A stretch of DNA of 64,000 bases from Rhizobium sp. GN54 (GTDB lineage Bacteria > Pseudomonadota > Alphaproteobacteria > Rhizobiales > Rhizobiaceae), in NCBI RefSeq assembly GCF_021026345.1, contig NZ_JAJNCZ010000007.1, positions 124,001-188,000 of the forward strand, read 5' to 3'. Position 1 is the stretch's first letter, and each line of letters opens with the position of its first letter. Shown in pieces: positions 24,440 to 45,870 of the stretch. The notes under the pieces were generated by a model, which ran no database searches, was not told where the DNA came from, and worked only from the letters and a program-made list of their open reading frames with translations. The position numbers were made by a program, and so were the translations under genes.

Positions 24440-25500
24440 GGCGCGGTCTCCGCGACCGGCGCCCAGATGACCTGGTCGATGCGCGCAGCGCCCGTCGCCA
24501 GCATCACCAGGCGATCGAAGCCGAGCGCGATGCCGCTCGCTTCGGGCATGATGCGCAGCGCTGCGAGAAAATCCTCGTCGAGCGGATAGGTCTCGCCATA
24601 GACCCGCTGCTTTTCCGCCATCTCCAGTCCGAACCGGCGACGCTGCTCGGCGGCGTCCGTGAGTTCGCCGAAGGCATTGGCGAGTTCGACGCCGCAGGCA
24701 TAGAGTTCGAAACGCTCGGCGACGCGGGGATCGTGCGGCGCCGGGCGCGCCAGCGCCGCCTCGGAGACGGGATATTCGCAAAGCACCGTCGCCCTGCCGA
24801 AACCGAGATTGGGCTCCACGCGCTCCACCAGCACGCGGCTGAACAGGTCGGCCCAGGTATCGTCGGGTGTCACGCGCATGCCGGCCCGGCCCATCGCCGT
24901 CGCCAGGACCTCGCGATCGGTCGCGCCGTCGGGACCGATGGTCGCCATAAGGTCGAGGCCGGCATGGCGCTCGAAGGCGGCCGCTACGGTCAGCCGTTCG
25001 GGCTCGGCAAAGGGATCGCAGTCACGTCCGCGCCAGGAAAGGCGCTGCGTCCCTGCCGTCCGCGCGGCAAGCGCCAGGATGGCGGCGCAATCGCGCATCA
25101 GTTCCTCGTAGCCTTCCCCCACCCGGTACCATTCGAGCATGGTGAATTCCGGATGGTGCAGGGGGCCCCGCTCGCGATTGCGGTAGACATGAGCGAAACA
25201 GGCGATCCGTTCCTCGCCGGCGGCGAGCAGCTTCTTGCAGGCGAACTCGGGCGAGGTGTGCAGGTAGAGCGGCGTCGCGGTTCCCGAATGGCCGATCGCT
25301 TCCGTGCGAAAAGCATGCAGATGCGCCTCGTTTCCGGGCGAGACCTGCAACGTCGCGGTATCGACCTCGACAAAGGCGCGCTCGGCGAAATAGCCCCTCA
25401 GCGCGGCCTGGATGCGGTTGCGCGCGATGAGGAACGGGCGACGGTCGGCATGGACGTCTGGCGTCCACCAGGGAGACGGTGCGGGCGTGCTCGCGGTCAT
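24436..25500 (-). CDS. epmA: EF-P lysine ligase EpmA (GenX/PoxA)
   Basis: A 354-residue paralogue of the class II lysyl-tRNA synthetase catalytic domain without the anticodon-binding domain. Motif 2 is seen at FAHVYRNRERGPLHHPEF and motif 3 at GIALGFDRLVML. It attaches beta-lysine to Lys34 of EF-P. It is slightly longer than E. coli EpmA (325). It is transcribed divergently from efp across a 146-base region. Confidence 0.94.
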   Translation of the reverse strand: MTASTPAPSPWWTPDVHADRRPFLIARNRIQAALRGYFAERAFVEVDTATLQVSPGNEAHLHAFRTEAIGHSGTATPLYLHTSPEFACKKLLAAGEERIACFAHVYRNRERGPLHHPEFTMLEWYRVGEGYEELMRDCAAILALAARTAGTQRLSWRGRDCDPFAEPERLTVAAAFERHAGLDLMATIGPDGATDREVLATAMGRAGMRVTPDDTWADLFSRVLVERVEPNLGFGRATVLCEYPVSEAALARPAPHDPRVAERFELYACGVELANAFGELTDAAEQRRRFGLEMAEKQRVYGETYPLDEDFLAALRIMPEASGIALGFDRLVMLATGAARIDQVIWAPVAETAP

Positions 25501-25646
25501 GGCAAGTTTCTATCAGATTCCGGCGGACACGCTGGCCTTTTTCCGGAATTTAGGGTAGTTGCGGCCCGATCCCGCTTTCCGGCGGCCCGGGGATGACACT
25601 TGCTGGGTCCTCTACGACGCGGTCGCTCCAGATACAAGGAAGACTT

Positions 25647-26216
25647 ATGGCAAAGATCATCGCTTCTTCCGTCCGCAAGGGCAACGTGCTCGACGTCGAC
25701 GGAAAACTCTACGTGGTTCTGACGGCACAGAACTTCCACCCGGGCAAGGGCACGCCGGTCACGCAGGTCGACATGCGCCGCATCTCCGACGGGGTGAAGG
25801 TCTCCGAGCGCTACCGCACCACCGAACAGGTGGAGCGCGCCCATGTCGAGGACCGCGAGCACACCTTCCTCTACGAGGACGGCGACGGCTTCCACTTCAT
25901 GAATCCGGAAAGCTACGACCAGCTGACCATGTCGGCCGACGACGTCGGCGATGCCAAGGCCTATCTCCAGGAAGGCATGGCCGTGATCCTGTCGACGCAC
26001 GAAGGCGTCGCGATCGCGCTGGACCTGCCGCGCAACGTGGTCCTCGAGATCACCGAGACCGAACCGGTCGTCAAGGGCCAGACGGCCTCCTCCTCCTACA
26101 AGCCGGCCATGCTTTCCAACGGCCTCCGCACGCTCGTGCCGCCGCACATCCAGGCCGGTACCCGCGTCGTCATCGCCACCGAAGACGGCTCCTACGTCGA
26201 GCGCGCCAAGGACTGA
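25647..26216 (+). CDS. efp: Elongation factor P
   Basis: A 189-residue, three-domain translation factor that relieves ribosome stalling at polyproline. The loop HPGKG places the modified lysine at residue 34, as in E. coli, consistent with the neighbouring epmA and epmB. The C-terminal domain contains the signature region [17 protein letters not shown]. The ATG at 25647 follows AAGGAAG. Confidence 0.97.
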
Positions 26217-31165: not shown

Positions 31166-32041
31166 ATGTCGCCAAACGAACCATCATTCCGTCTCTCGCT
31201 TGTGGTTGCCACGCTCGGCCGTTCGGACGAACTGGCGCGGCTTTTGGGCTCGCTCGCGGCACAGACGATCTCCGACTTCGAGGTCATCATCGTCGACCAG
31301 AACAGCGACGACCGCGTGCTGGGCCCGATCGCGCAGCATGCCGAAAGCTTGGAGATCGTCCATGTCAGGACGCCGAGGAAGGGCGTCTGCCGGGCCCGCA
31401 ACCTCGGCGCCTCCATGGCGCGCGGCGAATGGCTGATGTTTCCGGACGACGATTGCTGGTATCCGGAAGATCTGCTGGATCGCTACCGGCAGGTGACCGA
31501 AGCCACACCCGCCGACTTTCATTGCGGCCGCGCCACCAATGCGGCGGGACAGACGATCATGGGTACGTTCGAGAGCCAGCCGGTGCGGATCCGGCGCGGC
31601 AACGTCTGGACGACGCTGATCGAATGGATGCTGACGGTGCGAAAGGACGACTTCACGGCTGCGGGCGGGTTCGACGAGAAGATCGGGCCCGGTTCGGGCA
31701 CGCCATGGGGCGCCTACGAGGTGCAGGATTTCGTGCTGACGCTGCTGGAGCGCGGCCTGGCCGGCCGGTACGATCCGATGCTCGCAGGCCACCATCCCGA
31801 GGACATGACCGACCAGACCGTTCCGGCGAACATCGCCAAGATCCGCTGCTACAGCGCCGGTCTCGGCTATGTGATGCGCAAGCACGGTTTCGGTCTTTCC
31901 GGTTTCCTGCCGCGTCTCCTGCGGCCGCTCGCGGGAATGAGCATCTATGCGCTGACCGGCCGCCCGGCGATGGCGCGGCGATCACAGCAGATCCTGGTCG
32001 GCCGCTGGGACGGCTGGCGAAAGGCGGCCGGCGCGGCCTGA
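31166..32041 (+). CDS. GT2-family glycosyltransferase
   Basis: A 291-residue family 2 glycosyltransferase. It begins with LSLVVATLGRSDELARLLGS and has the nucleotide-sugar motif ARGEWLMFPDDDCWYPEDL, whose Asp cluster binds the metal. No membrane helix is predicted except possibly a weak C-terminal amphipathic segment, so it probably acts at the inner face of the membrane on a lipid-linked acceptor. It opens the polysaccharide locus and is followed 115 bases later by the tandem hydrolase. Confidence 0.88.
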   Translation: MSPNEPSFRLSLVVATLGRSDELARLLGSLAAQTISDFEVIIVDQNSDDRVLGPIAQHAESLEIVHVRTPRKGVCRARNLGASMARGEWLMFPDDDCWYPEDLLDRYRQVTEATPADFHCGRATNAAGQTIMGTFESQPVRIRRGNVWTTLIEWMLTVRKDDFTAAGGFDEKIGPGSGTPWGAYEVQDFVLTLLERGLAGRYDPMLAGHHPEDMTDQTVPANIAKIRCYSAGLGYVMRKHGFGLSGFLPRLLRPLAGMSIYALTGRPAMARRSQQILVGRWDGWRKAAGAA

Positions 32042-32156: not shown

Positions 32157-33953
32157 ATGCTGCGAACGAACGACCTTGCGGTGGACGCCGCCGGAAGCGC
32201 CTCCTGGGCGCCCGGATCGGCCGCCCTGCCCGTCTGCTTTGCCGGGACCGTCGGCCTCTTCACGCCACCGATGGCGGGTACGACGCCGTCCGACTGTGCC
32301 GTGCTCTTCCTCAGCCCATGGGGCTTCGAGGAGATGTGCACACGCAAGCTCTGGCGGGAGCTCGCCGAAGGCTTCGCCGGCCTCGGGATCGCGAGCCTGC
32401 GCTTCGACTATCCCGGCACGGGCGATTCGCTCGATCCGATGGAATTTTCCGGCGGCCTGCCGGTCTGGCAAAAGGCGATCGGGGCCGCCGCCGCCGAACT
32501 GCGCATGCTCTCCGGCGCGAGACGGCTGATCCTTGTCGGACACGGGCTGGGAGCGACGTTCTCGATCCTTTTCGGGCGGCAGCTCGGGGCGGTCGAGGCA
32601 ACGGTGCTGATGGCACCGGTGGTCAGCGGGCGCTTCTATCTGCGCGAGCTTTCCGCCTGGTCGAAGATGGTGGACGACGGCCTCGGGCTGACCGAGGAGC
32701 AGCGCCTGACGGGGAAGACCTCGGTCGCGGGCCTCGTCATGCCGGAGGACGTGGCAGCCGCAGTGCGTGCGATCAACCTTCAGGCCACCGATGCCGCGCC
32801 GGCCGGGTCGATCCTGATGGTGCACCGGCCGACCCGGGACAATGAGGCGGCCCTCGCCGCACGGCTGGAAGAGCTGGGTGCCGCGGTCTGCCGGAAGCCT
32901 TATCTCGGCTATGACGAGCTCGTCTCCAACCCCACGCTCGCCATCCAGCCCGAAACGGTCGTGCAGCACGTCATTGAATGGGTTGTGACGCTGGCGGCCG
33001 CGGCCGGGCCTGCGTGCGGGCCGCAACTTGCGCCGTCCCCGGCCGTTCTGGAAGGCGACGGCTTTGCCGAAGAGCCGTTGCGGTTCGGGCCGGCCGGCCG
33101 ACTGTCCGGCATCCACTGCCGGCCGGCCGTTCCGCGGCGCGGCGCCGCCGTGATCCTGCTCGGCACCGCCTACGACCGGCATGCCGGGTGGGCGCGCTCG
33201 ACCGTGGACACAGCCCGGTTGCTCGCCCGGCAGGGCGTTGCGTCCCTCCGGTTCGACGCCGCCAATGTCGGCGACAGCCCGCCGGTGGACGGTGCGGCGG
33301 GGCAGGTGCTCTTTTCCGAGGGGCAGAAGGACGACGTGCGCGCCGCCCTCGATCTGATGGCCGCGCGGCAGCTGACGCCCGCCGTCCTTGCCGGACGATG
33401 TAGCGGCGCCTACCTCGCCTTCCAGAGCGCCATCGACGAGCCGCGCTGCCGGAGCGTCGTCGCCGTCAATCCCTTCACCTTCGTGTGGGACCGGGATGAA
33501 GAGGTCGATGCAGCGCTGCGGTACAATCCGCGCTCGCTCGGCGACTATCGCAAGCGGGCGTTGCGGCTGGACACCTTGCGTCGGCTGGCTTCCGGCCAGA
33601 TCGATCTCCGGCGTGCCGCAGCCAATATCGGCAAGCAACTCGGCCGTCGGGCCGCGCTGATGGCGCCGGGCCCACTGGGGCGCCTGTCGAAATACGGCCG
33701 GCTGCGGCAGGCGGTGCTTTCAGCCTTCCGCTCGCTCGCCGAACGGCGCGTGCCGGTGCGGCTGATCTATAGCGATACCGACGTGGGGCTGGAGCGCTAC
33801 CACGCCTATTTCGGGGCCGACGGATCCGGCATGAACGCGTTTAAGAATGTCACGGTCGAGATCGTCCCCGATGCCGACCACAACCTGTCGCCGCCCGCCG
33901 CCAGGGCTCTCCTGCAACAGCGGATCCTCGAGGCGGCGCTCGCCGCCGACTGA
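32157..33953 (+). CDS. Tandem alpha/beta-hydrolase with altered nucleophiles
   Basis: A 598-residue protein made of two alpha/beta-hydrolase domains. The first (about 40-280) has RFDYPGTGDS and LVGHGLGATFS, where Gly130 replaces the usual nucleophilic Ser, so it is probably inactive or binding-only. The second (about 320-598) has RFDAANVGDS and AGRCSGAYL, with Cys415 at the nucleophile position, Asp540 (YSDTD) and His575 (DADHN) completing a possible triad. A Cys nucleophile is known from dienelactone hydrolase and some thioesterase-like proteins. There is no signal peptide. It may handle a thioester or acyl group in the polysaccharide locus (inference). Confidence 0.8.
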   Translation: MLRTNDLAVDAAGSASWAPGSAALPVCFAGTVGLFTPPMAGTTPSDCAVLFLSPWGFEEMCTRKLWRELAEGFAGLGIASLRFDYPGTGDSLDPMEFSGGLPVWQKAIGAAAAELRMLSGARRLILVGHGLGATFSILFGRQLGAVEATVLMAPVVSGRFYLRELSAWSKMVDDGLGLTEEQRLTGKTSVAGLVMPEDVAAAVRAINLQATDAAPAGSILMVHRPTRDNEAALAARLEELGAAVCRKPYLGYDELVSNPTLAIQPETVVQHVIEWVVTLAAAAGPACGPQLAPSPAVLEGDGFAEEPLRFGPAGRLSGIHCRPAVPRRGAAVILLGTAYDRHAGWARSTVDTARLLARQGVASLRFDAANVGDSPPVDGAAGQVLFSEGQKDDVRAALDLMAARQLTPAVLAGRCSGAYLAFQSAIDEPRCRSVVAVNPFTFVWDRDEEVDAALRYNPRSLGDYRKRALRLDTLRRLASGQIDLRRAAANIGKQLGRRAALMAPGPLGRLSKYGRLRQAVLSAFRSLAERRVPVRLIYSDTDVGLERYHAYFGADGSGMNAFKNVTVEIVPDADHNLSPPAARALLQQRILEAALAAD

Positions 33954-33995: not shown

Positions 33996-36461
33996 TCAAA
34001 AGGAAACCGGAGCAGGCAGGTTCAGGGCGGACAGCTCTCCGCCGGGGCGTTCCGCGGCGCCCGTGCGGACCAGCCGGATGACCTGTTCCCCGCCGGGAGA
34101 AAGATGGAACCAGTTGTCCGAGGGCAGGAAGCCCGGGCAATCGATGTGGACAGACTGCAGCAGCCGGTCCGCCCCGATCCGCAGTTGCCAGCCGCCCTCC
34201 GCCTCCTCCAGCGCGACGGTCGCCGTTGCCGGATGAAGGGCACGCGCACGGCCCTGCGGGAAATGGAAGGCTTCAGCGACGATCGTCGGACTGTCACCGT
34301 CCCGCAGGCTCGCAATGGTCACGTCATGGGCGGGCGGACCGAAGCGGAAGGCATAGGTCGTGTCGAAGAAGGCGCCGAAGAGATCGGTGGCGGCGAAGGT
34401 GGCGGCACCGCGCGCCGCAAGCGTCAGGGCGCGCCGCCCGGTGACGACGGGCTGACGGCCGTCGCGCAGGCAGGTGAGATCGACGGTCAGTTCGCGTCCT
34501 TGATCCGTCTCGTTGATCACGTGCACGTCGAGACCGTTGGTGCCCTCGTCGGAGAGCAGCACCTGGAGCGGGCGGAAGGCGCGCCGCAGCGCGTGCCAGG
34601 CCGGCTTCGGCAGGCCGGTGGCATCGACGACGCCCCAGCCTGCGCCCGGCATGAGGTCCTGGAGCGTCCAGACGAGCGCGCCGTTGCAGCTCGACTGCGG
34701 CCGCCGCCACTCGGCATATGTCGCCTCCATGACCTCGCCGCTGACCGCGCGGGAGATATCGAGGTAGCGCGCCGGGTCCTCGCGTCGCAGGCGCGCAGGA
34801 TCGCAATCGTAGAGCAGGCCGAGATAGTGTTCGCGCACGTCCTCGAAATCCCAGGAGGCGCCGCGGTCGCGCGGGATTCGGGATTTCCAGCGCGGGTCGT
34901 GCACGGCGGGAACGGGCAGATGCGCGTCGAGCGTCACCTGCTCCGGGACATTGGCGAAAGCCAGCGATTCGGCCGCAAAGCGCACCCCGGCCCGGCGCGC
35001 ATCCTCGAGCGGCCGGCAATAGGCGCCGACGCCGTAATAATGGGCGACGCCCGCATTGGAGGAGAACGGCAGGGCGCCGCCAAAGGGCGCGTTGGGGACA
35101 AAGGGGACGTCCGGGCGCAGCGCCCGGACGATCTCGGGCAGGACCGCATCCGTCAGCGGCCCATTCCCGGCCTCGGCCGGCAGACCGAGCATCGCCGCCT
35201 GCTGGAATACCTCGCTGCCGCCGCAGAGAACAGCCAGCGCTGGCGAAGCGGCCGTGCGCTGCAGGAACTGTTCGACCTCGGTTTTCAGCAGGGCGACGAA
35301 ATCTCCGTCTGCAGCCGGATAGTCGAAGTTCGCCAGCATGACGTCCTGCCAGACGAGAATGCCGAGCTCGTCGCACAGCTCGAAGAAGGCATTGCTCTCA
35401 TAGGCCATGGTGCCGCCGATGCGCAGCAGGTTCATGCCCGCGCCGGCGGCCAGCCTCAAGGTCGGTTCATAGGCCGCCCGCGTGCCCGGCAGGTCGACGA
35501 TGTCGGCATTCGTCCAGACCGCGCCGCGGCAGAAGACCGGGACCCCGTTCACCCGCAGGGCGAAACCGCGGCCGTCCGCACCGGTATCGATATCGATGCG
35601 GCGGAAACCGGTGCGACCGAGCGCATGGCTCTCGCCGTCGATTTCGACCTCGACCCCGTGCAGAACCGGCCGGCCATGCGTGTGCGGCCACCAGGCCGCA
35701 ACGTCGGGGATGGCGAGCTTGCCCTGCCACCGGCCATCGGCGCCGCGCTCCATGGCCGCCGTGACGCCGGCGCAGCGCAGAAGGGCGGGGCGGGCGCCGT
35801 CGCCGGCCAGGAACGATACGGCCAGATGCCCGGTGCCGTCCGGCGCGAGCGTCGCGGCCATGCGGATGTCTGCTGGCTCGGCAGGCTGCGGCCGCACGAG
35901 GCGGACGGGGCGATAGGGACCGAGCGCATGCACGGAAGGACACCATCCCGGCATCCGGCCGAGCAGCGTCGTTCGGGTGAGCCGGACGCCTTGCGGAACG
36001 ATCATCTGCGGACGCCAGCGAGCACGCGGGCCGCGTCGCTCGAGATGCGGCCCGAGCGCGCGGAAGCAGATCGCCAGACGATCCCTGCCGGTGACCTGCA
36101 CGTCGATCTCGTGGGCCACGAACATCGAGCGGGAGGAAAGCCGGAGCTCGCCGTTCCAGTAGACGTCCGCGATCGTCGCGAGGCCCTCCAGCGCAAGCAC
36201 GGCTGGACCCGGTGTCTCGCCGACGCGCTCGAGCAGGTACCACGCATCATAGCCGTCGAGCGGCATCGGATCGTCGCGGTCGAAGCGTCCTGCGCGTTCC
36301 AGCGCGCCCGCGACCGTGCCCGGCACCGGCGCATCCAGCATTTCCACATCGGGACCGATCATGGAGGGATCGGACCACGCCCCGGCTGCGACAAGGCACA
36401 GCTTCCAGCCCTTCTCCAGGTCCACGATCTGCGGGGACGCGCCTTCGGCCGCTTCGCTCAT
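33996..36461 (-). CDS. Glycoside hydrolase family 2 (beta-mannosidase-like)
   Basis: An 821-residue protein. The N-terminal jelly-roll (AIADVYWNGEL-like segment at about 90, then an Ig-like domain) precedes the TIM barrel. The likely acid/base is Glu417 in CGGSEV and the nucleophile Glu498 in RFAAESLAF, 81 residues apart as expected for GH2; NLLRIGGTMAYES and WQDVMLANF are beta-mannosidase-like. No signal peptide is seen, so it may act on internalised or cytoplasmic glycans. It is 13 bases upstream of the DUF1839 gene's stop side, on the same strand as that operon and downstream of it. Confidence 0.88.
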   Translation of the reverse strand: MSEAAEGASPQIVDLEKGWKLCLVAAGAWSDPSMIGPDVEMLDAPVPGTVAGALERAGRFDRDDPMPLDGYDAWYLLERVGETPGPAVLALEGLATIADVYWNGELRLSSRSMFVAHEIDVQVTGRDRLAICFRALGPHLERRGPRARWRPQMIVPQGVRLTRTTLLGRMPGWCPSVHALGPYRPVRLVRPQPAEPADIRMAATLAPDGTGHLAVSFLAGDGARPALLRCAGVTAAMERGADGRWQGKLAIPDVAAWWPHTHGRPVLHGVEVEIDGESHALGRTGFRRIDIDTGADGRGFALRVNGVPVFCRGAVWTNADIVDLPGTRAAYEPTLRLAAGAGMNLLRIGGTMAYESNAFFELCDELGILVWQDVMLANFDYPAADGDFVALLKTEVEQFLQRTAASPALAVLCGGSEVFQQAAMLGLPAEAGNGPLTDAVLPEIVRALRPDVPFVPNAPFGGALPFSSNAGVAHYYGVGAYCRPLEDARRAGVRFAAESLAFANVPEQVTLDAHLPVPAVHDPRWKSRIPRDRGASWDFEDVREHYLGLLYDCDPARLRREDPARYLDISRAVSGEVMEATYAEWRRPQSSCNGALVWTLQDLMPGAGWGVVDATGLPKPAWHALRRAFRPLQVLLSDEGTNGLDVHVINETDQGRELTVDLTCLRDGRQPVVTGRRALTLAARGAATFAATDLFGAFFDTTYAFRFGPPAHDVTIASLRDGDSPTIVAEAFHFPQGRARALHPATATVALEEAEGGWQLRIGADRLLQSVHIDCPGFLPSDNWFHLSPGGEQVIRLVRTGAAERPGGELSALNLPAPVSF

Positions 36462-36474
36462 GCGCCCTCCGGCC

Positions 36475-37449
36475 TCAGTCGACGCGGCGTTCGAGAACGG
36501 CGATCATCTCGTCCCAGGCCGAGACTGCCGGGTCGAGCGCGGTCGCAAGAGGCTCGAAACGCTTGCGGGTGACCGCGCGGGCGAGCTGGAACTGCACCGA
36601 CTTGGCGTTCTCGGCGATGCGACGCGCGGCCGCTGCGGCGTCGGTCAGCGTGCCGTCCGGGGCGATCCAGTCGAGATGGCTGGCGGCAAGTTCGAAATTG
36701 GCACCGAGCTGGCGCAGCGTGTTGAAGGCATATTTGTGGAAGAAGCCGAAGGGCCGCTCCGCGACAGCCTCCACCTGGCCGGGAAAGACGGCGGCGAAGG
36801 CGGCGACGGGATTGTCCGCCGGCCGGCGCTGCAGATGGAAGCGCAACAGGCGGCGGGCGGCCCTTGCCGTGTCGGTCTCGGCCGGACGCGCGGCGGGGAA
36901 CTTCGCGAATTCCGTATAGGGCAGGAACGGCAGCGCATCGGCCGGCGCATCAAGCTGGAACAGGCCGTCGAAATCCTCGCCTTCGAGCCGGAAGAAGCCG
37001 GCATTGTGGAAGTAGTCGAGCGTGCGGCTTCCAAGGTCCAGCCGGTTGATCGCCACCGTCGTCTTGCCGTGCTCCAGCCGGTAGGCGACGCCGCGCGTGT
37101 CGGGCATGTAGAAACTGTCCATCTCGACGAGGCACAGGCGACCACGGCCGATCTGTTCGGCGACGTGGCGTTCGACGCGGTCATAGATCGCAAGCTCGGT
37201 GCAGCGGATGCCGTAGAGGACTTCGAGGTCCTCGAGCGGCACCTTGAAGAAGGTGAACTGGTCGCCCTCGAAATCCTGCGTCAGCGTGAAGCCCAGCATC
37301 GCCTCCGGCGGCAGCGCCTGCGCGCCCAGAACCTCGATCCACAGGTCGACATAGCAGTTGGTTTCCGGCCACATGCGCTCGTGATCGTGCAGCGCGTGCG
37401 GCCGGTAGGTGGCGGGATCAAGCCCGGGAAAGACGGAAGCTACGCCCAA
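36475..37449 (-). CDS. DUF1839 family protein, candidate aminoacyl transferase
   Basis: A 324-residue protein recognised as DUF1839, a family found beside amino acid:carrier-protein ligases. There is no ATG; the best start is TTG at 37449, directly after the ligase stop (37452-37454). Conserved-looking polar residues are Cys32 in PETNCYVDLW, Asp111 in LVEMDSFYMPDT, His127 in LEHGKTTVAI and Asp145 in LDYFHN. The order Cys, His, Asp with these secondary-structure surroundings resembles papain-like folds, including the BtrH acyltransferase of butirosin synthesis. I infer transfer of an aminoacyl group from the carrier; this is not established. Confidence 0.72.
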   Translation of the reverse strand: MGVASVFPGLDPATYRPHALHDHERMWPETNCYVDLWIEVLGAQALPPEAMLGFTLTQDFEGDQFTFFKVPLEDLEVLYGIRCTELAIYDRVERHVAEQIGRGRLCLVEMDSFYMPDTRGVAYRLEHGKTTVAINRLDLGSRTLDYFHNAGFFRLEGEDFDGLFQLDAPADALPFLPYTEFAKFPAARPAETDTARAARRLLRFHLQRRPADNPVAAFAAVFPGQVEAVAERPFGFFHKYAFNTLRQLGANFELAASHLDWIAPDGTLTDAAAAARRIAENAKSVQFQLARAVTRKRFEPLATALDPAVSAWDEMIAVLERRVD

Positions 37450-37451
37450 GG

Positions 37452-38363
37452 TCAGCCCCAGAGGGTCTTGCGGACGCTTTCCGGCCAGTCGGCGACGTCG
37501 AGACCGTGGGTGTGGAACAGAGCGAGCGCGATGCGTTCCAGGCCGAAGCCGACGCAGGCGGTGTGCGCCACGCTGCCATCCTCCATGGTCAGGCCCCACT
37601 TCGTGCCGAACGCATCCTGATGATAGTTGAAGCTCATGCAGGCCGTGGGTCTCGCGACCGAGGTGATCGGGATCAGGAGCTCGAACTTCAGGTTCTGGTC
37701 GCGCTGGTTGTTGGCCAGCATCTTGCCGGCGCGGCCGAAGAAGGGATCGTTGGCGACATCGATCGTCACCTCGAGGCCGACCTCCTTCATCATCTGCACG
37801 CCGCGGTCCATCCAGGACTGGCGGAAATCGGTGACATGCTTCTCCGTGCCCATGCAGACATATTCGCGCATGCGGAAGAGCTGCTGGCGAGCCGGGTCCT
37901 GCGAAGGTTCGTGGCGGAAACAGTAGGACTGCAGGTCGTAGAGCGCGCCCTTTGCCGGGATCGCCCCGCGTCTGGCAACCGTCGGATAGAGCGGGTAGCA
38001 GGCGGCCGGCGTCAGGACGATATCGGTTGCCTTCTGGTCCTTCGTCCAGTCCTCCTCGCCCACTTCCATGCACTTCAGCAGGCTCATGTGGTCGAGTTCG
38101 TTGCCGCAGAAGGAATGGACGGTGCCGGCCAGCTGCGGGAAGCTCTTCATGTAGCCGCTCTTTTCGAAGAAGGCGCGGTTCATGCCCGGCGGGAAGCGCA
38201 TGGCTTCCGCGCCGTCGGCGCCGCCGACACGGTCGATCAGGCGCTCGAAGGCGAGGATGACGTCCTCGAACCGGCCGCTGCGGCCATAGAGCCCTTCAAC
38301 GCCGGTGTCGATCAGAAGGCCGGAATCGAACAGGCGTTCGAGAAACGAGGTCTGCATATCCAT
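37452..38363 (-). CDS. Amino acid--[carrier protein] ligase (class II synthetase-like)
   Basis: A 303-residue relative of atypical seryl-tRNA synthetase catalytic cores, lacking a tRNA-binding domain. Class II motif 2 is [17 protein letters not shown] and motif 3 is GFGLERIAL. The zinc ligands of this family are in place: Cys122 (AACYP), Glu167 (MREYV) and Cys270 (HTACV). Characterised homologues from Bradyrhizobium and Agrobacterium activate glycine or alanine and load it on the phosphopantetheine of a small carrier protein. The carrier gene is two genes upstream in the same operon. Which amino acid is used here is not readable. Confidence 0.9.
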
Positions 38364-38369
38364 GGTTCT

Positions 38370-39542
38370 TCACCCCAGAAGACTGGTGTCCTGCTTGTGG
38401 ACAAGCAGGAGATTGGACGTGTTGCCGAGAATGCGGTCGTTGGAGATCATCAGCTGGGCCGAATGCGCATCGCGCAGGTGCCGGCCAAGGCTGTAGGGCG
38501 TACCGTTCTTGTAGCCCATGATGCCGCAGATCAGCATGGCGTGGTTGATGATCGTCAGGATCGTCTCGGACGAGCCGATCTTCAGATTGTTCATGGCGAC
38601 GGCGAAGCCCATCGAGGACAGCCGGTCGGCATCCGCCTTCGCCACCTCGAATTCGTTCAGGCCGGCGACCACGTTCGACTTCAGCAGTTGCAGCAGGTTC
38701 GACGCCTCGGCCAGGCGCAGGGCGCCGGGCGGCGTCTGGCCCGGCGACCTGCGTGCCGCGGCGCGGACGAAGGCCTGGGCACGCGCCATCGCATTGGCGG
38801 CGATCCCGTACCAGACGGCGCTCCAGAGAAGATGCGAGGTGGCGAGCATCGACTGGGCGGCGATCTCGGCGAAGGGCTTGGGCAGGATCTGCTCGGCCGG
38901 CGCCTCGGCCTTGAACAGATAGCCGTCGGAGCAGGTGCCGCGCATGCCGAGCGTATCCCAGACATGGGTGCGCTCCAGCGTGTATTGATCCTTCGTGAAT
39001 ACGGTCATGACCTGGTCGGTGGAGGCGGCCTCGGCGTGGCTGCGCGAGGTAATCAGGATCGCATCCGCGTTGGCGCCGTAGGAAATGACGGTCGCATCCT
39101 TCTCAAGCCGGCAGCGGTCGCCCTCGACCGCGATGGCGCAGATGCTGTTGCGCAGGTTGCCGCCGATGCCGCCTTCCGTCGTGGCGGAAGCCAGAAGCAG
39201 CTGTTCGTCGGCGATGCGGCGCATGAAGGTGCGGTGCCAGGCGGCATCGGTGCCATGCGAGACGAGGCTCGACGCCTTGATCTGGTGCATGGCGAAAACC
39301 ATGGCCGCGGCAGAGCAGGACTGGCCCAGAATGGAGCAGACCTCGGCGATTTCGGCAATGCTCGCCCCTTCGCCGCCGAGCTCCGTGACGATCTGGATGG
39401 ACAGCAGGCGTTCGGCGCGCATGGCGTCCACCGCTTCCTGCGGGAAGCGCCCCTTGACGTCGACATCGTCGGCGTGCGCCTCGGCCACGGCGGCAACGCG
39501 GGCGGCTCTTTCCGCCAGACCTGCCCCGGTGGACATGTTCAT
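38370..39542 (-). CDS. Acyl-CoA dehydrogenase homologue of the aminoacyl-carrier operon
   Basis: A 390-residue flavoprotein with the acyl-CoA dehydrogenase fold: N-terminal helical domain, FAD-binding middle domain (SATTEGGIGGN, DTLGMRGTCSDG) and helical C-terminus (HAMLICGIMGYKNG). The usual catalytic Glu of the C-terminal loop (medium-chain enzyme Glu376) appears to be Ile366 in this protein, in the stretch RDAHSAQLMISND. It starts within the carrier-protein stop (ATGA) and ends 6 bases before the ligase. Context suggests a carrier-bound aminoacyl substrate rather than a fatty acyl-CoA. Confidence 0.82.
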   Translation of the reverse strand: MNMSTGAGLAERAARVAAVAEAHADDVDVKGRFPQEAVDAMRAERLLSIQIVTELGGEGASIAEIAEVCSILGQSCSAAAMVFAMHQIKASSLVSHGTDAAWHRTFMRRIADEQLLLASATTEGGIGGNLRNSICAIAVEGDRCRLEKDATVISYGANADAILITSRSHAEAASTDQVMTVFTKDQYTLERTHVWDTLGMRGTCSDGYLFKAEAPAEQILPKPFAEIAAQSMLATSHLLWSAVWYGIAANAMARAQAFVRAAARRSPGQTPPGALRLAEASNLLQLLKSNVVAGLNEFEVAKADADRLSSMGFAVAMNNLKIGSSETILTIINHAMLICGIMGYKNGTPYSLGRHLRDAHSAQLMISNDRILGNTSNLLLVHKQDTSLLG

Positions 39543-39793
39543 TCGGCAGCCTCCGCAGTGCCGGTCAGGCTTTCGACCGTGCGGGTGATGGCCGCGATGC
39601 TCTGGAACGACTTGCGGTTGAGCAGATTGTCCGGAAACTCCAGGTCGAAGGCTTCCTCGATCGCCAGCATGATCTGGACGGATGCGAAGGACGACAGGCC
39701 GGCCGCGTAGAGGTCCTGGTCGTCGGCGATCTTATCGACTGCGACCGGCAGGCCGCCATGCCTGGCGAGCAACTCACGGATTTTCTGCTTCAT
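39539..39793 (-). CDS. Acyl/aminoacyl carrier protein
   Basis: An 84-residue carrier protein. Helix II begins at AAGLSSFASVQIMLAIEE; Ser35, in the place of the AcpP DSL serine, should carry phosphopantetheine. The acidic helix III region (EEAFDLEFPDNLL) is typical. The GLSSF form differs from the DSL of fatty-acid ACP and resembles carriers paired with amino acid:carrier-protein ligases. It is the first gene of the minus-strand operon and overlaps the next gene by four bases. Confidence 0.9.
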   Translation of the reverse strand: MKQKIRELLARHGGLPVAVDKIADDQDLYAAGLSSFASVQIMLAIEEAFDLEFPDNLLNRKSFQSIAAITRTVESLTGTAEAAE

Positions 39794-40077: not shown

Positions 40078-40192
40078 CGGGACGGTCCCCGGGAACCGCC
40101 GTGTGGTCTGACGGCAGCGAAGGCTGCGAAATTCGGCCGCGTCCCCAGGATTGCGACAGGGACCGCAACAGGGACGGGCGATCGGGCATGTG

Positions 40193-42214
40193 ATGGACAT
40201 CGACATTTTTCAGCTGCCGGGCATCGTGAGGAAGAGGATCCACTACGTGATCCTCGCCGCGGTGGTGTGCGCGCTGCTGGGCATGGGCTTCGTCCTCACC
40301 CAGAAGCCGTTCTATCGCTCGACCGCCGAGATCTTCGTCGATATCGGCGCCGGGCCCGTCGTCGGCACCGATACCGGCGGGTCGCTCAACACGCAGCAGG
40401 TGATCGGCAGCCAGATCTACCTGATCCAGTCCCGCGACGTGCTGCGCGACGTCGTGACCAGGCTGGACCTCACAAACGACCCCTATTTCAACGGCGGCGG
40501 CCTGCTGTCGAAGCTGCTGGGCCGACCGAAGACCGACGCGGCGACAGTCGACGGCGTCATCAATGCCCTGCTGGAGAACCTGAGCGTCGCGCGCAACGGC
40601 GACAGCTTCGTCTTCACCATCACCGTCAAGCACGGCAACAGCGAGATGGCCGCGAAGATCGCCAATGCCATTGCCGAAAGCTACCTCGCAGTTGCCGACA
40701 AGGCGCGCCTGGACGTCAGCCTGAAGACCACCCGCACGATCGCCGAGCAGGCCGAAGAGCTGCGCCAGCGGGTGCTCGACGCCCAGGAGGCGGTGGAGGA
40801 CTTCCGGGCCGAAAACGGCATGATCAGCGCGGGCGACCAGGGACTGATCACCGACCAGCAGCTCGCCGGCCTGAACCAGCAGTTGCTGACAGCGCGCCAG
40901 CAGGTGGAGCAGCTGAAGACGGCCTACGAACAGGCACGCCAGCTCAACGTCTCCAATGTCGAGGCCGGCGCCATTCCCGAAACGCTGAATTCCGGCGCGC
41001 TCTCCGGGCTGCGCAGCCGCTATTCGCAGGCGCTCGACCGCCAGGCGGAACTGGCAGCCAATCTCGGCAACGACCATCCGCAAATGCGGGCGATCCGCTC
41101 GCAGATCGCCAGCATCCGCAACGCCATCGAGATCGAGCTCGAGCGCATACGCCAGTTGTCGGCCAATACCTACGAGCGCAGCCGGGCCAACCTCGCCTCG
41201 CTGGAAAAGCGCTTCGACGATCAGGCGGCCTCGAGCAAGGACAACGGCAAGCTCCGCTTCCAGCTGGTCCAGCTGACCAGCGAGGCTGCGGCCATCGATG
41301 CGGTCTACAAGGCATTCCTGACCCGCGCCGAGGAACTGAGCCGCCAGCAGGATCTCGGCAACGGCAATTCCCGCGTCATCTCCGAAGCCGTGCCGTCCGA
41401 CAAGGCGGTGCAGGCGCCGAAGCTTCTGGTCCTGATCGCCGCGGTCCTGTTCGGATCTGCCGCAGGCGCCGCCCTTGCGGTGCTGCGCGAACTCCTGGGC
41501 GGCACCAAGCGCATGGAGCGGAGCCTCGTTGCCAAGACCGGTGCGCCGATGCTTGCCATCATGGCCGGCGACGCGCCACCGCCACCCGGCCGCCTGGACC
41601 GTTTCGCGCAGCGGCTGCCGTTTGCACGGCCGCCGGTCCCGGAAGCCCTGCCGCGGGAGGCGGGGATCCGCAGGCTCGGCCAGTTGCTCGAGGCGGAATT
41701 CGGCGCCAGCCACTCCGCCACCATCGCATTTTTGTCTGCCGACGGCAGCGGCCGCGACGGGGTTGCCGCGGACGTGGCGCGCGAGTTGCATGTCGCCGGC
41801 GAGATCGTGCTCTTCTGCAACGGCGAACTCCGCCACAGGGATCATTCGGCCGCGCGATCCTCCTGGAGCGTCAAGATCCGCCTCGACGCCGCCTTGCCAC
41901 GCGACCATGCGCTGGAGGACGTCCTGCACTTCGAACGCATCGGCGCCGGCGGCCTGAGACGGATCGCAGCACTCGGGTCCTCCCGCGTCAGCACCGCGCC
42001 GCGGACCGAACCCGTTGACTTCGCCGTCATCGACTGCAGCGGCACGCCGGCAGAAACGGTCATCCCCACCGTCATGAAGCATACCGACGCCGTCATCGTC
42101 GTCTCGACCATTGGTGCGACGGGTGGCGATGCCCTCGACACGCTGATGGCGGAAATCGGCCCCTGGCGCGACAAGATCCTCGGAAACGTCCTTCTGACCC
42201 ACCGGGCGCCTTAG
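40193..42214 (+). CDS. Wzc/ExoP-like polysaccharide co-polymerase without kinase motif
   Basis: A 673-residue inner-membrane protein. A first membrane helix (YVILAAVVCALLGMGFVL, about residues 19-37) and a second (LLVLIAAVLFGSAAGAAL, about 410-430) flank a Wzz/GNVR periplasmic domain rich in coiled coil. The C-terminal cytoplasmic part resembles a BY-kinase domain, but the expected Walker A position reads SADGSGRDGVAAD without the Gly-Lys-Ser/Thr, and no tyrosine cluster is seen. It likely controls chain length or export without self-phosphorylation. The ATG at 40193 (MDIDIFQLPG) is preferred over an upstream TTG. Confidence 0.87.
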   Translation: MDIDIFQLPGIVRKRIHYVILAAVVCALLGMGFVLTQKPFYRSTAEIFVDIGAGPVVGTDTGGSLNTQQVIGSQIYLIQSRDVLRDVVTRLDLTNDPYFNGGGLLSKLLGRPKTDAATVDGVINALLENLSVARNGDSFVFTITVKHGNSEMAAKIANAIAESYLAVADKARLDVSLKTTRTIAEQAEELRQRVLDAQEAVEDFRAENGMISAGDQGLITDQQLAGLNQQLLTARQQVEQLKTAYEQARQLNVSNVEAGAIPETLNSGALSGLRSRYSQALDRQAELAANLGNDHPQMRAIRSQIASIRNAIEIELERIRQLSANTYERSRANLASLEKRFDDQAASSKDNGKLRFQLVQLTSEAAAIDAVYKAFLTRAEELSRQQDLGNGNSRVISEAVPSDKAVQAPKLLVLIAAVLFGSAAGAALAVLRELLGGTKRMERSLVAKTGAPMLAIMAGDAPPPPGRLDRFAQRLPFARPPVPEALPREAGIRRLGQLLEAEFGASHSATIAFLSADGSGRDGVAADVARELHVAGEIVLFCNGELRHRDHSAARSSWSVKIRLDAALPRDHALEDVLHFERIGAGGLRRIAALGSSRVSTAPRTEPVDFAVIDCSGTPAETVIPTVMKHTDAVIVVSTIGATGGDALDTLMAEIGPWRDKILGNVLLTHRAP

Positions 42215-42225
42215 GAGACGCCGAG

Positions 42226-43530
42226 ATGGCCCGCACGGAATCGATCGGCACCGGGACGGGCTTCAGCAACCGACGAAGCCACAACATCCCGCAGGCGCAC
42301 CACGAAGCCGGCACGCCGGCCAAAATCGACCCGGTGCGCATCGCCGCGATCGTGACGGTGATCGGCGGCCTCGTGTTCAATGCGCTCCTCTGCCTGGTCA
42401 ACACCCGTTTCATGGGCATGGCCGACCGCCATGTCATCATGTCGGAACTCGTGATCGTCGGCTGCGCCTTCCTCGCGGCCATGACGCGAAAGTCGACGCT
42501 CTATGTGATCCTCGGCCTGTTCGTCAGCTACATGATGTTCCTGTTCATGCTGCGCGGGCAGGTGAATCCCAAGGCAGTCCGCGACATCCTCATCCCGCTG
42601 ACCTTCTACTTCATGGCCGTGCGCATCGCGGACGCGAGGCTCGCCGACAGGCTGGTGACGGCCAGCGGCCTGATCGTCGTCGGCTTCGGGCTGTTCGAGT
42701 ATCTCTTCCTGGAGACCTTCCTCGAATACTTCAACGTCATCGGCTACTATCTGGCGCGCGGCACCGTGACACTCGACCAGGTGTTCGGGCAGACCAAGGG
42801 CCTGTTCATTTCCGGCCAGCGCCCCGAGGCGCGGACGATCCTGCCCTTCCTCGGCCAGCACCGCGTCTCCTCCGTCTTCCTGGAGCCGGTGTCGATGGGC
42901 AATTTCGCCGTGATCATCTATTCCTGGGCGCTCTATCGCGGCCGCGCCTTCCCCGGCCGCTGGCTGGTCTTTGCGCTCGCCTTCACGGTGATCGCGCTGG
43001 CCGATGCGCGCTTCGGGCTCTACAGCTGCGTGCTGATCACGCTGCTCTATCCCGTCTATTCCTTCCTGCCGCGGCTGGTCTGGGTCGTCCTGCCGTTCTT
43101 CCTGCTCGCGGTGCTGTCGATCTACGGTATCACCTCGGTTTCCGGCGGGGGGCCGAACGACCTCGCCGGACGGTTCGCCGTGACCGCGCATATCCTGACG
43201 CAGCTCGACCTCGGCGTGGTGCTGGGCTCGGAGACGACCGACGCGTTTACCGCCGATTCCGGCATCTCCTACTCGCTGACCGCTTTCGGGATCTTCGGCT
43301 TCATCGGGTTGTGGACGATGCTCGTGCATGCGCCGCTGAAGGAAGCGCGGGCCTGGCGCTTCCACTCGATGATGATCGTCTATCTGCTGCTTCTGATGCT
43401 GATCAGCGATTCGTTCTATTCGATCAAGACGGCCGCCCTGATGTGGTTCCTGGTCGGCACCGCCGGGGCGTGCCGGCAAACGGCCGCTCCGCAACGGCCG
43501 GCTGCCGCCGCCATGCCACGCAGGGCATGA
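42226..43530 (+). CDS. Wzy-like polysaccharide polymerase / O-antigen ligase-type membrane protein
   Basis: A 434-residue protein with ten or more membrane segments (for example IAAIVTVIGGLVFNALLCLV, LYVILGLFVSYMMFLFML and WVVLPFFLLAVLSIYGI). A large loop follows GRFAVTAHILTQLDLGVVLG, in the position of the periplasmic loop of Wzy and WaaL proteins. It begins 11 bases after the Wzc-like gene and is evidently co-transcribed. Its role as polymerase is inferred from topology and neighbour; the family is too diverse for a firm call. Confidence 0.7.
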   Translation: MARTESIGTGTGFSNRRSHNIPQAHHEAGTPAKIDPVRIAAIVTVIGGLVFNALLCLVNTRFMGMADRHVIMSELVIVGCAFLAAMTRKSTLYVILGLFVSYMMFLFMLRGQVNPKAVRDILIPLTFYFMAVRIADARLADRLVTASGLIVVGFGLFEYLFLETFLEYFNVIGYYLARGTVTLDQVFGQTKGLFISGQRPEARTILPFLGQHRVSSVFLEPVSMGNFAVIIYSWALYRGRAFPGRWLVFALAFTVIALADARFGLYSCVLITLLYPVYSFLPRLVWVVLPFFLLAVLSIYGITSVSGGGPNDLAGRFAVTAHILTQLDLGVVLGSETTDAFTADSGISYSLTAFGIFGFIGLWTMLVHAPLKEARAWRFHSMMIVYLLLLMLISDSFYSIKTAALMWFLVGTAGACRQTAAPQRPAAAAMPRRA

Positions 43531-43536
43531 GTTTCC

Positions 43537-44580
43537 TTACCCGGTCTCGCCGAGCGCCGGGCAGGCCGCCTTCGGGGCCGGGATGCTGCCGCCATATTCG
43601 AGGGCGCGCAGCTGCGGCCGGTCGCCCTCGCTGGTCGGCTGGATGTTGAGCGCCTCGGTCTGCGGCCACCAGTCGCCCGCCGCCCAGTAGGTCCAGCCGG
43701 TCCATACGTCCGGGGCGCCGTCGACGACGGCGGTCATGCGCGAAAGGGCCGTCAGGCATTCGCTCGTGGCCGGTGCGCCGAACTCACCCAAGAAGCCACG
43801 CTTGCCGTTCTCGCGCAGCCAGACCGTGAAGCGTTCGAGTGCCGCCACGGCTTGCGCCGCGCCCTCGCAGGTCTCGTGCGTGCCGGAGAAGTCCTCGTCC
43901 AGGTACTGGTGGACCTCGTAGGCGTAGTTCTTCGCCGGATCCTCGATGCCCAGCATCACACTGGCGTTCGAGCCGCCGGGGCGATCGCTCTCCCAGCTGT
44001 GGGCGCCGGTCCAGATCGTTCCGGGAACGTAGACGAGATTTTCGGCCCCCGCGCTGCGGATGGCGGCGATGGCGGCGTTGGCGGCGACCAGCCATCGGTC
44101 GGCCGGAATGTCGTGCGGTTCGTTCATCAGGCCGAACTGCACCGCCGGATCGTTTGCGAACTCGGTGGCAAGCCGTCGCCAGAAGTCGGCAAAGGCCTCG
44201 ACGGGGACCTCGGTGGAGCCGATCTGGCGACCGCCGTGATAGGCATAGTTATGCGGATCGAGGACCACCGTGAAACCCGCCGCCTTCAGGCGCTTGACAG
44301 TGTCGACGAGGCGCCGGCGCTCGCCCATCGCAAACGCCCGGCCGAGCCTCGGCTGAAGCCGTTCCCAGCGGAAGGGCAACCGCGCGCCGTTGAACCCCTT
44401 GCCGGCAAAATACCGGATCGTCTCGTCGCTCGGATAGATGTAGTCCTTGCCGTAGACGCCCGGCGGATCGCCGAACTCGGCCCCGGCAAGGTTGACGCCG
44501 CGCAGGCAGGCGGCGGACGCATCCAACGGAAGGACCAGCGCCAGCGCGAGCCCGCCGATCCGCATCGCCCTGCGTCTCAT
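43537..44580 (-). CDS. Secreted glycoside hydrolase family 5 (cellulase-like)
   Basis: A 347-residue protein with a signal peptide ending LDASA. The mature part is a GH5 barrel: FNGARLPFRWERLQP, DPHNYAYHGG, acid/base Glu154 in GLMNEPH and nucleophile Glu266 in FLGEFGA. GH5 enzymes cut beta-1,4-glucans, mannans and related chains. In exopolysaccharide loci such an enzyme usually trims or releases the polymer. It is convergent with the Wzy-like gene (6-base gap). Confidence 0.92.
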   Translation of the reverse strand: MRRRAMRIGGLALALVLPLDASAACLRGVNLAGAEFGDPPGVYGKDYIYPSDETIRYFAGKGFNGARLPFRWERLQPRLGRAFAMGERRRLVDTVKRLKAAGFTVVLDPHNYAYHGGRQIGSTEVPVEAFADFWRRLATEFANDPAVQFGLMNEPHDIPADRWLVAANAAIAAIRSAGAENLVYVPGTIWTGAHSWESDRPGGSNASVMLGIEDPAKNYAYEVHQYLDEDFSGTHETCEGAAQAVAALERFTVWLRENGKRGFLGEFGAPATSECLTALSRMTAVVDGAPDVWTGWTYWAAGDWWPQTEALNIQPTSEGDRPQLRALEYGGSIPAPKAACPALGETG

Positions 44581-44613: not shown

Positions 44614-45870
44614 TCAGCCATTGGCTGCGACTTCATTGCCTTCACCGCCCTTTGCCGCTGCCGGGCCCCATTCGGGCGGAGCGACGCCTCCCAGAACTTC
44701 AGTATAGATCGCGGCATAGCGCCGGGCCACATGATCCCAGGAGTAGCCTTCCGCCGCGCGCATCGCCCTTGCCCGGTAGGCGGGGACGTCGCGGGCAAGT
44801 GCCAAAAACGCCGCGTGGATCGTCCCGGCTGCCGTCTCCGCGTCCTCGAAGTCGCAAAGGCGGACCTCGGGATGCTTGGCGGCGAGGTCGCGATAGGCCT
44901 GGTTCGGATGCAGCAGGGGCAGGAGGCCCGCGCTCATCGCCTCGACGGCAACGAGGCCGAAGCCCTCATATTCCGAAGCGGAGGCAAACAGCGAGCATCC
45001 GGACACCAGGTCGCGGACCTGTTCGTTCGACAGGCCGACATGCACGTCGATATGGTCTTCGAGCGCCCGCTGGCCGATCATCCGCCGCAGGGCTGCCTCG
45101 TCCAGTTCGCCCGGCACGCCCACCACCGATAGCCGCCAGTCCGGCTCGTGCACGACGAGGCGCGACAGGGCATCGAACAGACGGTCGAGCCGCTTGTTGG
45201 AGGAGAAGCGTCCGATCGTGACGATGCGGCGAAGCGGCTTCGTCGCGCCCGCGTCACGGAACTTGGCGATATCGGCGCCATTGTCGACCTCGACGACGCG
45301 GCGGCCGGCGACCTTGCGGAACAGGCGGGCATCCTGCGCGCTGCAGGCGATCAGCCGGCGGTAGGCGAGCGCCGAAAGGCGCGTCGTCACGTTGAACCAG
45401 ACGAGCTTGAGCGCCTTGTGCCGCTCGGTATGGAAGAAACCGCCATGGGTGGTGGCGACGAGCGGCTTTCCATGCAGGGCCTTGCCCCAGGCGAGCGCAT
45501 CGAAGAAGAAGTCGATCGCATGGACGTGCACGAGGTCGGCATCCTTCAGGTGCCGGAACACGCCCGGCGCGAAGGGATAGCGGGTGCTGCCCGAAAACGG
45601 GATCCGGATCACCTCGATGCCGTCGACGATCTCGCGCGCGGGCAACTTGCGGTCGGGGGCGGTAAAGAGGCGATCGAGCGTCACCACGCGGACGCGATAG
45701 CCACGCGCGCAAAGCTGGCGCGACAGGTTGGCGACGACGTCCTCCAGTCCGCCGCGGCTCGGCGGGAACTGGCGCACGACCTGCACGGCGAGCGGCGCGC
45801 GCCTGTCGGCATCGATGGAAAGACTGCCTTGCAGAAATGCGTCCATGCCGTCATCCGTGCCGCATCGCAT
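44614..45870 (-). CDS. GT4-family glycosyltransferase
   Basis: A 418-residue GT-B glycosyltransferase. The N-terminal acceptor domain opens with VVRQFPPSRGGLEDVVANL and the donor domain has IGRFSSNKRLDRLFDAL and the E-x7-E signature in SASEYEGFGLVAVEAMSAG. It likely adds a sugar to the lipid-linked polysaccharide precursor. Starts at 45870 and 45846 (MDAFLQG) are both possible. It lies 33 bases upstream of the GH5 gene on the same strand and downstream of polA. Confidence 0.9.
   Translation of the reverse strand: MRCGTDDGMDAFLQGSLSIDADRRAPLAVQVVRQFPPSRGGLEDVVANLSRQLCARGYRVRVVTLDRLFTAPDRKLPAREIVDGIEVIRIPFSGSTRYPFAPGVFRHLKDADLVHVHAIDFFFDALAWGKALHGKPLVATTHGGFFHTERHKALKLVWFNVTTRLSALAYRRLIACSAQDARLFRKVAGRRVVEVDNGADIAKFRDAGATKPLRRIVTIGRFSSNKRLDRLFDALSRLVVHEPDWRLSVVGVPGELDEAALRRMIGQRALEDHIDVHVGLSNEQVRDLVSGCSLFASASEYEGFGLVAVEAMSAGLLPLLHPNQAYRDLAAKHPEVRLCDFEDAETAAGTIHAAFLALARDVPAYRARAMRAAEGYSWDHVARRYAAIYTEVLGGVAPPEWGPAAAKGGEGNEVAANG

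Follow-up and report, generated by a model that had tools for sequence, protein, structure and literature searches.

What happens to an amino acid once a synthetase-like ligase has loaded it on a small carrier protein? The question is raised by a stretch of 64,000 nucleotides from Rhizobium sp. GN54 (the window, throughout), in which genes for a carrier protein, a flavoprotein of the acyl-CoA dehydrogenase fold, a zinc class II amino acid:carrier-protein ligase and a DUF1839 protein lie packed together among polysaccharide genes. Glycine and alanine specificities are known among homologues of the ligase. Such homologues are reported to adenylate a small amino acid and to load it on the phosphopantetheine of the carrier (as cited in PMC2922099), and the available text of a review from 2022 describes the role of these carrier-charging synthetase homologues as unknown (PMC9437257). 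The initial annotation of the locus placed the amino acid on an extracellular glycan, a proposal that is not novel, as it was already in print in a note in proof by Iyer et al. 2010 (PMC2922099), who also noted the glycosidase and guessed a monooxygenation by the flavoprotein. Here, we describe a unit of five genes and a sixth partner of matching occurrence, and we lean somewhat towards a reading in which the six proteins aminoacylate a sugar, independently of tRNA, on a repeat unit that Wzx exports, the acceptor, the product and the amide or ester nature of the bond all being hypothetical.

The five-gene unit and its sixth partner

The six proteins are encoded in the window as follows:

39539-39793, minus strand: carrier protein (aminoacyl; phosphopantetheine Ser35); PF00550 (E 1.6e-8) and NF005480
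38370-39542, minus strand: flavoprotein of the acyl-CoA dehydrogenase fold, lacking the usual catalytic Glu; PF02771 and PF00441
37452-38363, minus strand: zinc class II amino acid:carrier-protein ligase; NF005479 (E 7e-155), PDB 4h2w and 3mey
36475-37449, minus strand: DUF1839 protein, predicted papain-fold carrier-protein-to-acceptor aminoacyltransferase; PF08893 (E 7e-135)
33996-36461, minus strand: beta-mannosidase-like glycosidase of glycoside hydrolase family 2 (GH2), fifth gene of the operon; PF22666 (29.6 bits, cut-off 27)
32157-33953, plus strand: two-domain alpha/beta-hydrolase-fold protein, predicted acyltransferase; TIGR03100 and TIGR03101 below cut-off, and co-occurrence

The position, strand and packing of the first four genes are as initially annotated, with overlaps or gaps of at most 6 bases: the carrier and flavoprotein genes overlap by 4 bases, the flavoprotein and ligase genes are 6 apart, and the ligase and DUF1839 genes 2, the likely start of the latter being a TTG at 37449 that aligns with the Met of several homologues. 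The four genes are thus real, but the unit drawn from them was incomplete: GH2, earlier taken for a mere flanking glycosidase, follows DUF1839 on the same strand after 13 bases and belongs to the operon as well.

DUF1839 was searched for in three sets of genomes, namely relatives (19/101 positive) and the class (5/385), both counted with the genome of the window, and the phylum (16/398, several of them found before), which together give 33 distinct DUF1839-bearing genomes. We read 33 operon stretches of 14 to 20 kb each from 32 genomes, leaving out the window's own. The ligase, flavoprotein and carrier are each present in 32/33 of these stretches, GH2 in 31/33 and the hydrolase-fold protein in 22/33; L058, an exception, represents a second copy of DUF1839 at the end of a contig, and in L054 the GH2 gene is not beside the operon and instead lies beside the hydrolase gene on another contig of the same genome. 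A scan of GTDB genomes with the ligase alignment gave at least 582 relatives, the best 80 of which, mostly Rhizobiaceae and close kin rather than independent cases, have DUF1839 and GH2 in 80/80, the carrier in 79/80 and the hydrolase-fold protein in 55/80; the closest ligases with a named source come from Mycoplana and Rhizobium species. Of 113 ligase loci, the window's among them, 111 keep the strand and order of the five genes from carrier to GH2; the two that deviate are L080, where the contig ends ahead of the carrier gene, and L054. This arrangement exceeds chance, and a unit of four genes only is rejected, because GH2 is as constant as the other four (111/113).

The hydrolase-fold gene is found in 19 of the 101 relatives, and these are exactly the 19 with DUF1839 (p 6e-21, kinship ignored). 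A second set of 80 chosen genomes has it in 14/14 with DUF1839 and 1/66 without. The two sets share 6 genomes and were searched at cut-offs of 1e-20 and 1e-12; over the 175 distinct genomes the counts are 33/33 with DUF1839 and 1/142 without, the lone match in the latter group consisting of two short separate frames. At L367:8795-10643, in a genome without DUF1839, hydrolase-like domains occur as two separate frames, with a Wzx gene elsewhere in the stretch. The correlation extends within a genus (g371), one species of which has both DUF1839 and the hydrolase-fold gene and seven listed congeners neither, and it holds across contigs, the hydrolase gene and the operon lying on different ones in seven genomes (G017, G023, G070, G086, G286, G571 and G647).

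The surroundings of this sixth gene link it to Wzx flippases. In 12 further stretches around it, polysaccharide genes were found in 10/12 and a Wzx flippase in 8/12, three of the 12 (L364, L365 and L366) adjoining or overlapping operon stretches and having been picked with flippases already seen; minus these three, the counts are 7/9 and 5/9. Moreover, the hydrolase is fused behind a Wzx domain in 29/79 open frames, all from Rhizobium or same-order loci (three of them checked with Pfam). Both its matching occurrence and its fusion to Wzx are new as far as our literature searches reach, as is the counted constancy of GH2.

Predicted chemistry of the six proteins

The ligase scores 514.7 bits against NF005479 (curated cut-off 357), and its Cys122, Glu167 and Cys270, which we take to be the zinc ligands, were correctly singled out by the initial annotation, being invariant in 17/17 ligases. 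The same applies to Ser35 of the carrier, invariant in 33 aligned carriers. The carrier scores 118.6 bits against NF005480 (cut-off 72), has 2jq4 (Atu2571) and chain C of 4h2w as PDB relatives, and is weakly similar to DltC, below cut-off. Bradyrhizobium japonicum Bll0957 (3mey, 4h2w) and Agrobacterium Atu2571 (2jq4) thus belong to the same ligase and carrier families as the proteins of the window. We presume, from its place after the carrier Atu2571, that Atu2574 is the DUF1839 protein. The flavoprotein of the window has no Glu at residues 343-352 (GYKNGTPYSL motif), the place of the catalytic residue in medium-chain acyl-CoA dehydrogenase (MCAD), or at residues 232-241, the corresponding place in isovaleryl-CoA dehydrogenase (IVD), both places having been assigned by eye. 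Glu is likewise absent from the MCAD-type motif in 31/33 aligned flavoproteins, and none of the 33 has it at the IVD-type place.

The DUF1839 protein matches PF08893 with 449.7 bits (gathering cut-off 22.5) over model positions 2-312 of 313. Its structure model, made from 34 natural sequences (pLDDT 93.1), has as best PDB matches in Foldseek chains of the AziU2/AziU3 complex, CtaG and CcbD, which align over the whole length at E 1.8e-7 to 1.3e-3 and TM 0.54 to 0.61. Cys30 (numbering of alignment A2) is conserved in 32/34 sequences, and His125 and His146 in 34/34. The two copies lacking Cys30 are operon copies from a distant, perhaps Burkholderia-like family (L059:7025-7960 and L064:9456-10397, genomes G773 and G708); both have also lost Asp136 and Lys127, and each of these genomes carries another DUF1839 with the full motif. 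A 2023 survey, in its available text, assigns DUF1839 a papain fold and a C-(T/S)-H site, with glycan processing as a guess at its role (PMC10318531), and our literature search on DUF1839 found nothing beyond it. In the accessible part of a study of CcbD, carrier-bound proline is loaded on the Cys of the enzyme and then passed to an amino sugar in a ping-pong reaction (PMC12945683). From the modelled fold, DUF1839 is predicted to be a carrier-protein-to-acceptor aminoacyltransferase, and the likeness of its predicted fold to the CcbD type is also new as far as the literature searches reach.

Two characterized systems bear comparison. In lincosamide synthesis, the Cys enzyme CcbD or LmbD couples an amino acid held on the carrier CcbZ or LmbN to an amino sugar, and CcbD matches DUF1839 in fold and length; however, the amino acid is there activated by an adenylation enzyme of the non-ribosomal peptide synthetase (NRPS) type, according to the available text of PMC4351081, the product is a soluble antibiotic, and CcbD has no profile-level sequence similarity to DUF1839. 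The BtrH-type acyl-carrier:aminoglycoside acyltransferases share a papain-like fold and the transfer from carrier to aminoglycoside, but the description in the accessible portion of PMC10318531 has DUF1839 as a separate family with its C-(T/S)-H site.

Such relatives invite another explanation, namely that the operon makes a soluble amino-sugar conjugate, lincosamide-like or mycothiol-like, and that the nearby polysaccharide genes are incidental or merely help in export. The nearest folds of DUF1839 are indeed natural-product enzymes, no signal peptide was seen by eye in GH2, and in 11/23 genera all read loci have the five genes without polysaccharide genes. We nevertheless hold this unlikely, given that some of the genomes have the constant sixth partner adjoining a Wzx flippase or fused to one, and that polysaccharide genes are enriched over control stretches.

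The two domains of the hydrolase-fold protein weakly resemble exosortase-A-associated hydrolases 2 and then 1; the scores are 98.8 of 168.45 bits for hydrolase 1 (TIGR03100) and 60.8 of 202.75 bits for hydrolase 2 (TIGR03101), below the curated cut-offs. These are its best named relatives, from which it differs in the fusion of the two domains and in a first domain that has Gly or Arg at the nucleophile position in 39/40 sequences. The second domain has a GxCSG motif, and its Cys415, Asp574 and His575 are invariant in 40/40; the Cys at the nucleophile position suggests an acyltransferase. As for GH2, it is closest to solved beta-mannosidases (PDB, E 4e-41), and its Glu417 and Glu498, the catalytic pair as placed by eye on an alignment to 5n6u, are invariant in 32/32. 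A beta-mannoside is its candidate substrate by sequence similarity.

With both catalytic Glu retained in GH2, a secreted-looking GH5 glycosidase nearby and a sixth protein whose fold is that of ordinary hydrolases, one might suppose a catabolic or salvage operon, in which GH2 and the hydrolase degrade imported glycan fragments. This is very improbable in our estimate: an ATP-dependent ligase, a carrier and the fold of a carrier-type acyltransferase are all biosynthetic, and the fusion of the hydrolase to Wzx speaks against degradation too.

Polysaccharide genes and other neighbors

Around the six genes, the window has the following variable context (GT, glycosyltransferase):

31166-32041 (start inferred from the reading frame), plus strand: GT2 glycosyltransferase; PF00535 (E 1.5e-21)
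40151-42214, plus strand: polysaccharide co-polymerase (Wzz/GNVR); PF02706 and PF13807
42226-43530, plus strand: possible Wzy polymerase; no family match
43537-44580, minus strand: GH5 glycosidase with a start that looks like a signal peptide by eye; PF00150 (E 1.3e-48)
44614-45870, minus strand: GT4-type glycosyltransferase; PF00534 and PF13439

The GT2, GT4, co-polymerase and GH5 genes are present as claimed, whereas the protein called Wzy-like has no family match: since neither a Pfam nor an NCBIfam model matched 42226-43530, its polymerase role is only presumptive. Homologues of this Wzy candidate are present in 10/101 relatives, 8 of those with DUF1839. The four PF13440 matches of the genome all lie outside the window, which itself holds the glycosyltransferases and the co-polymerase. 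A constant role for the Wzy, GH5 and GT genes is rejected, as all vary among loci; in taking these and the co-polymerase as the partners of the operon, the initial annotation missed the constant ones, GH2 and the hydrolase-fold protein.

A link to polysaccharides is nevertheless seen in the counts. Genes for glycosyltransferases, Wzx, Wzy, co-polymerase, Wzc, sugar-phosphate transferase and ManC were counted with local profiles or single queries in the DUF1839 stretches and in 40 control stretches on the same contigs from 25 of the DUF1839 genomes. The initial profiles missed Wzc and Bac_transf (17/33 loci, 2/40 controls) and were widened with proteins of the distant locus L059, which carries a sugar-phosphate transferase, ManC and Wzc; the resulting 19/33 DUF1839 stretches with polysaccharide genes against 3/40 controls (Fisher p 3e-6, kinship ignored) may still be an undercount. 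In 18 of the 19 positive loci the nearest such gene is at most 2.7 kb from the core genes, and in the last 6.3 kb. At least one positive locus is found in 12/23 genera, and with the surroundings of operon and hydrolase combined, 23/33 genomes are positive (the window counted as such). Among 94 neighbor proteins of 15 of the 16 initially negative loci, no common theme was seen in the 25 families listed of 173; two sugar transferases among them were then added to the polysaccharide count.

The window also holds, at 23351-26216, genes for elongation factor P (EF-P; Pfam EFP domains), a class II synthetase paralogue (PF00152) and a lysine-2,3-aminomutase-like radical SAM protein, the latter two of which we take to be EpmA-like and EpmB, respectively. 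Of the 68 loci that have both a relative of the aminomutase-like gene and the carrier gene, 57 show the former upstream of the latter and codirectional with it, 138-366 bases away. This neighborhood, in which EF-P, EpmA-like and EpmB-like genes adjoin the operon in many Rhizobiaceae and the aminomutase-like gene so regularly runs ahead of the carrier, could mean that a lipid or protein, and not a glycan, receives the amino acid, perhaps in connection with EF-P modification. Distant families, however, carry the operon in other contexts, the EF-P set of the window lies past the far end of the operon with EF-P about 8 kb from GH2, and GH2 would be left without a role, such that we consider this option improbable.

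A candidate pathway for glycan aminoacylation

In the glycan aminoacylation that we favor, the ligase would adenylate a small amino acid and load it on the phosphopantetheine of the carrier, as reported of its homologues. The flavoprotein, which in the window lacks the dehydrogenase base, may modify the amino acid on the carrier or the acceptor, by oxygenation or in some other way. Judging by its fold and conserved residues, DUF1839 would take the aminoacyl group on Cys30 and pass it in the cytoplasm to a sugar amino group (or a hydroxyl), much as CcbD does. The co-occurrence and the fusion suggest that the hydrolase-fold protein, with Cys415 as nucleophile, performs a second acyl transfer or proofreading on the lipid-linked repeat at Wzx. 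GH2 may trim a beta-linked sugar off a cytoplasmic intermediate, and the decorated repeat would be exported within a Wzx/Wzy-type polysaccharide. That this amounts to a new glycan decoration, in which a synthetase relative, a carrier and two successive Cys acyltransferases (one of the papain fold, the other a flippase-tied protein of the hydrolase fold) attach an amino acid, perhaps after its oxygenation by the flavoprotein, to the lipid-linked repeat prior to export and without tRNA or NRPS adenylation domains, is a more tentative claim, which we put forward as possible and rather doubtful.

Several observations weigh against glycan aminoacylation. Cross-genome comparison of the operon with polysaccharide genes, which the initial annotation had proposed as a check, divides the loci: the link is upheld by the enrichment in 19/33 and by a hydrolase that in some genomes adjoins Wzx or is fused to it, but in 14/33 loci no polysaccharide gene was found in the stretch, and in 10/33 genomes none near either the operon or the hydrolase gene. 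A GH2 enzyme that shows no signal peptide is hard to place in a Wzx/Wzy pathway. The superposition of the DUF1839 model on its fold relatives is loose (root-mean-square deviation 5.4 to 7.3), and those relatives presumably belong to small-molecule pathways. The link of DUF1839 to CcbD is one of fold, because the sequence profile (A2), searched against PDB sequences up to E 10, found none of AziU2/AziU3, CtaG and CcbD. The acyltransferase role of the hydrolase is likewise read from its Cys motif, because the 50 matches listed by the fold search are all hydrolases or esterases of the ordinary kind. Among solved structures, the flavoprotein comes closest to ordinary acyl-CoA dehydrogenases, with nitrososynthases further down, and two of the 33 flavoproteins (L052 and L063) keep Glu in the MCAD-type motif.

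A second kind of ligase locus, in genomes perhaps akin to Bradyrhizobium, adds to these objections. In the phylum sample, the ligase exceeds the cut-off in 28/398 genomes, including all 16 with DUF1839. Loci without DUF1839 were read from the 12 others (11 loci) and from G075 of the relatives; these 12 stretches (L298-L309) have the flavoprotein and ligase in 12/12 and the carrier in 10/12, and neither DUF1839 nor GH2 was found in any of them. Some have a gene for a co-polymerase, Wzx or a GT nearby. The first steps therefore also serve something else, or another transferase, and the ligase biochemistry worked out in Bradyrhizobium may belong to a different pathway. This split into two kinds of ligase locus is, within the reach of our literature searches, also new. 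At L310-L317, remote ligase homologues of 246-444 amino acids (E 8e-21 to 8e-46) occur in stretches from which the flavoprotein and DUF1839 are absent.

Literature searches found no match for an aminoacyl carrier protein together with polysaccharide, and none on substituents among the ten matches listed for amino-acid substituents of rhizobial polysaccharide. Among the matches listed for exosortase hydrolases none was of use, and of three listed for Agrobacterium and Bradyrhizobium locus tags two name a tag a single time. PssP2 of Rhizobium leguminosarum was rejected as a match to the locus, the available text of PMC4182512 showing no link.

A precedent for the general logic comes from the Dlt D-alanylation of teichoic acids, in which an amino acid borne by a small carrier is finally attached to a polymer of the cell surface, as proposed here, with an activating enzyme and transferases that differ from those of the operon. 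Together, GH2, the flippase-linked hydrolase and the fold of DUF1839, with its characterized amino-sugar-acylating relative, give the carrier-charging enzyme a defined and testable pathway. If true, the polysaccharides on the surface of rhizobia and some distant Pseudomonadota would carry amino acids by a tRNA-independent route, and a carrier-charging enzyme of so far unknown role would have found its purpose in a gene set scattered among soil bacteria.

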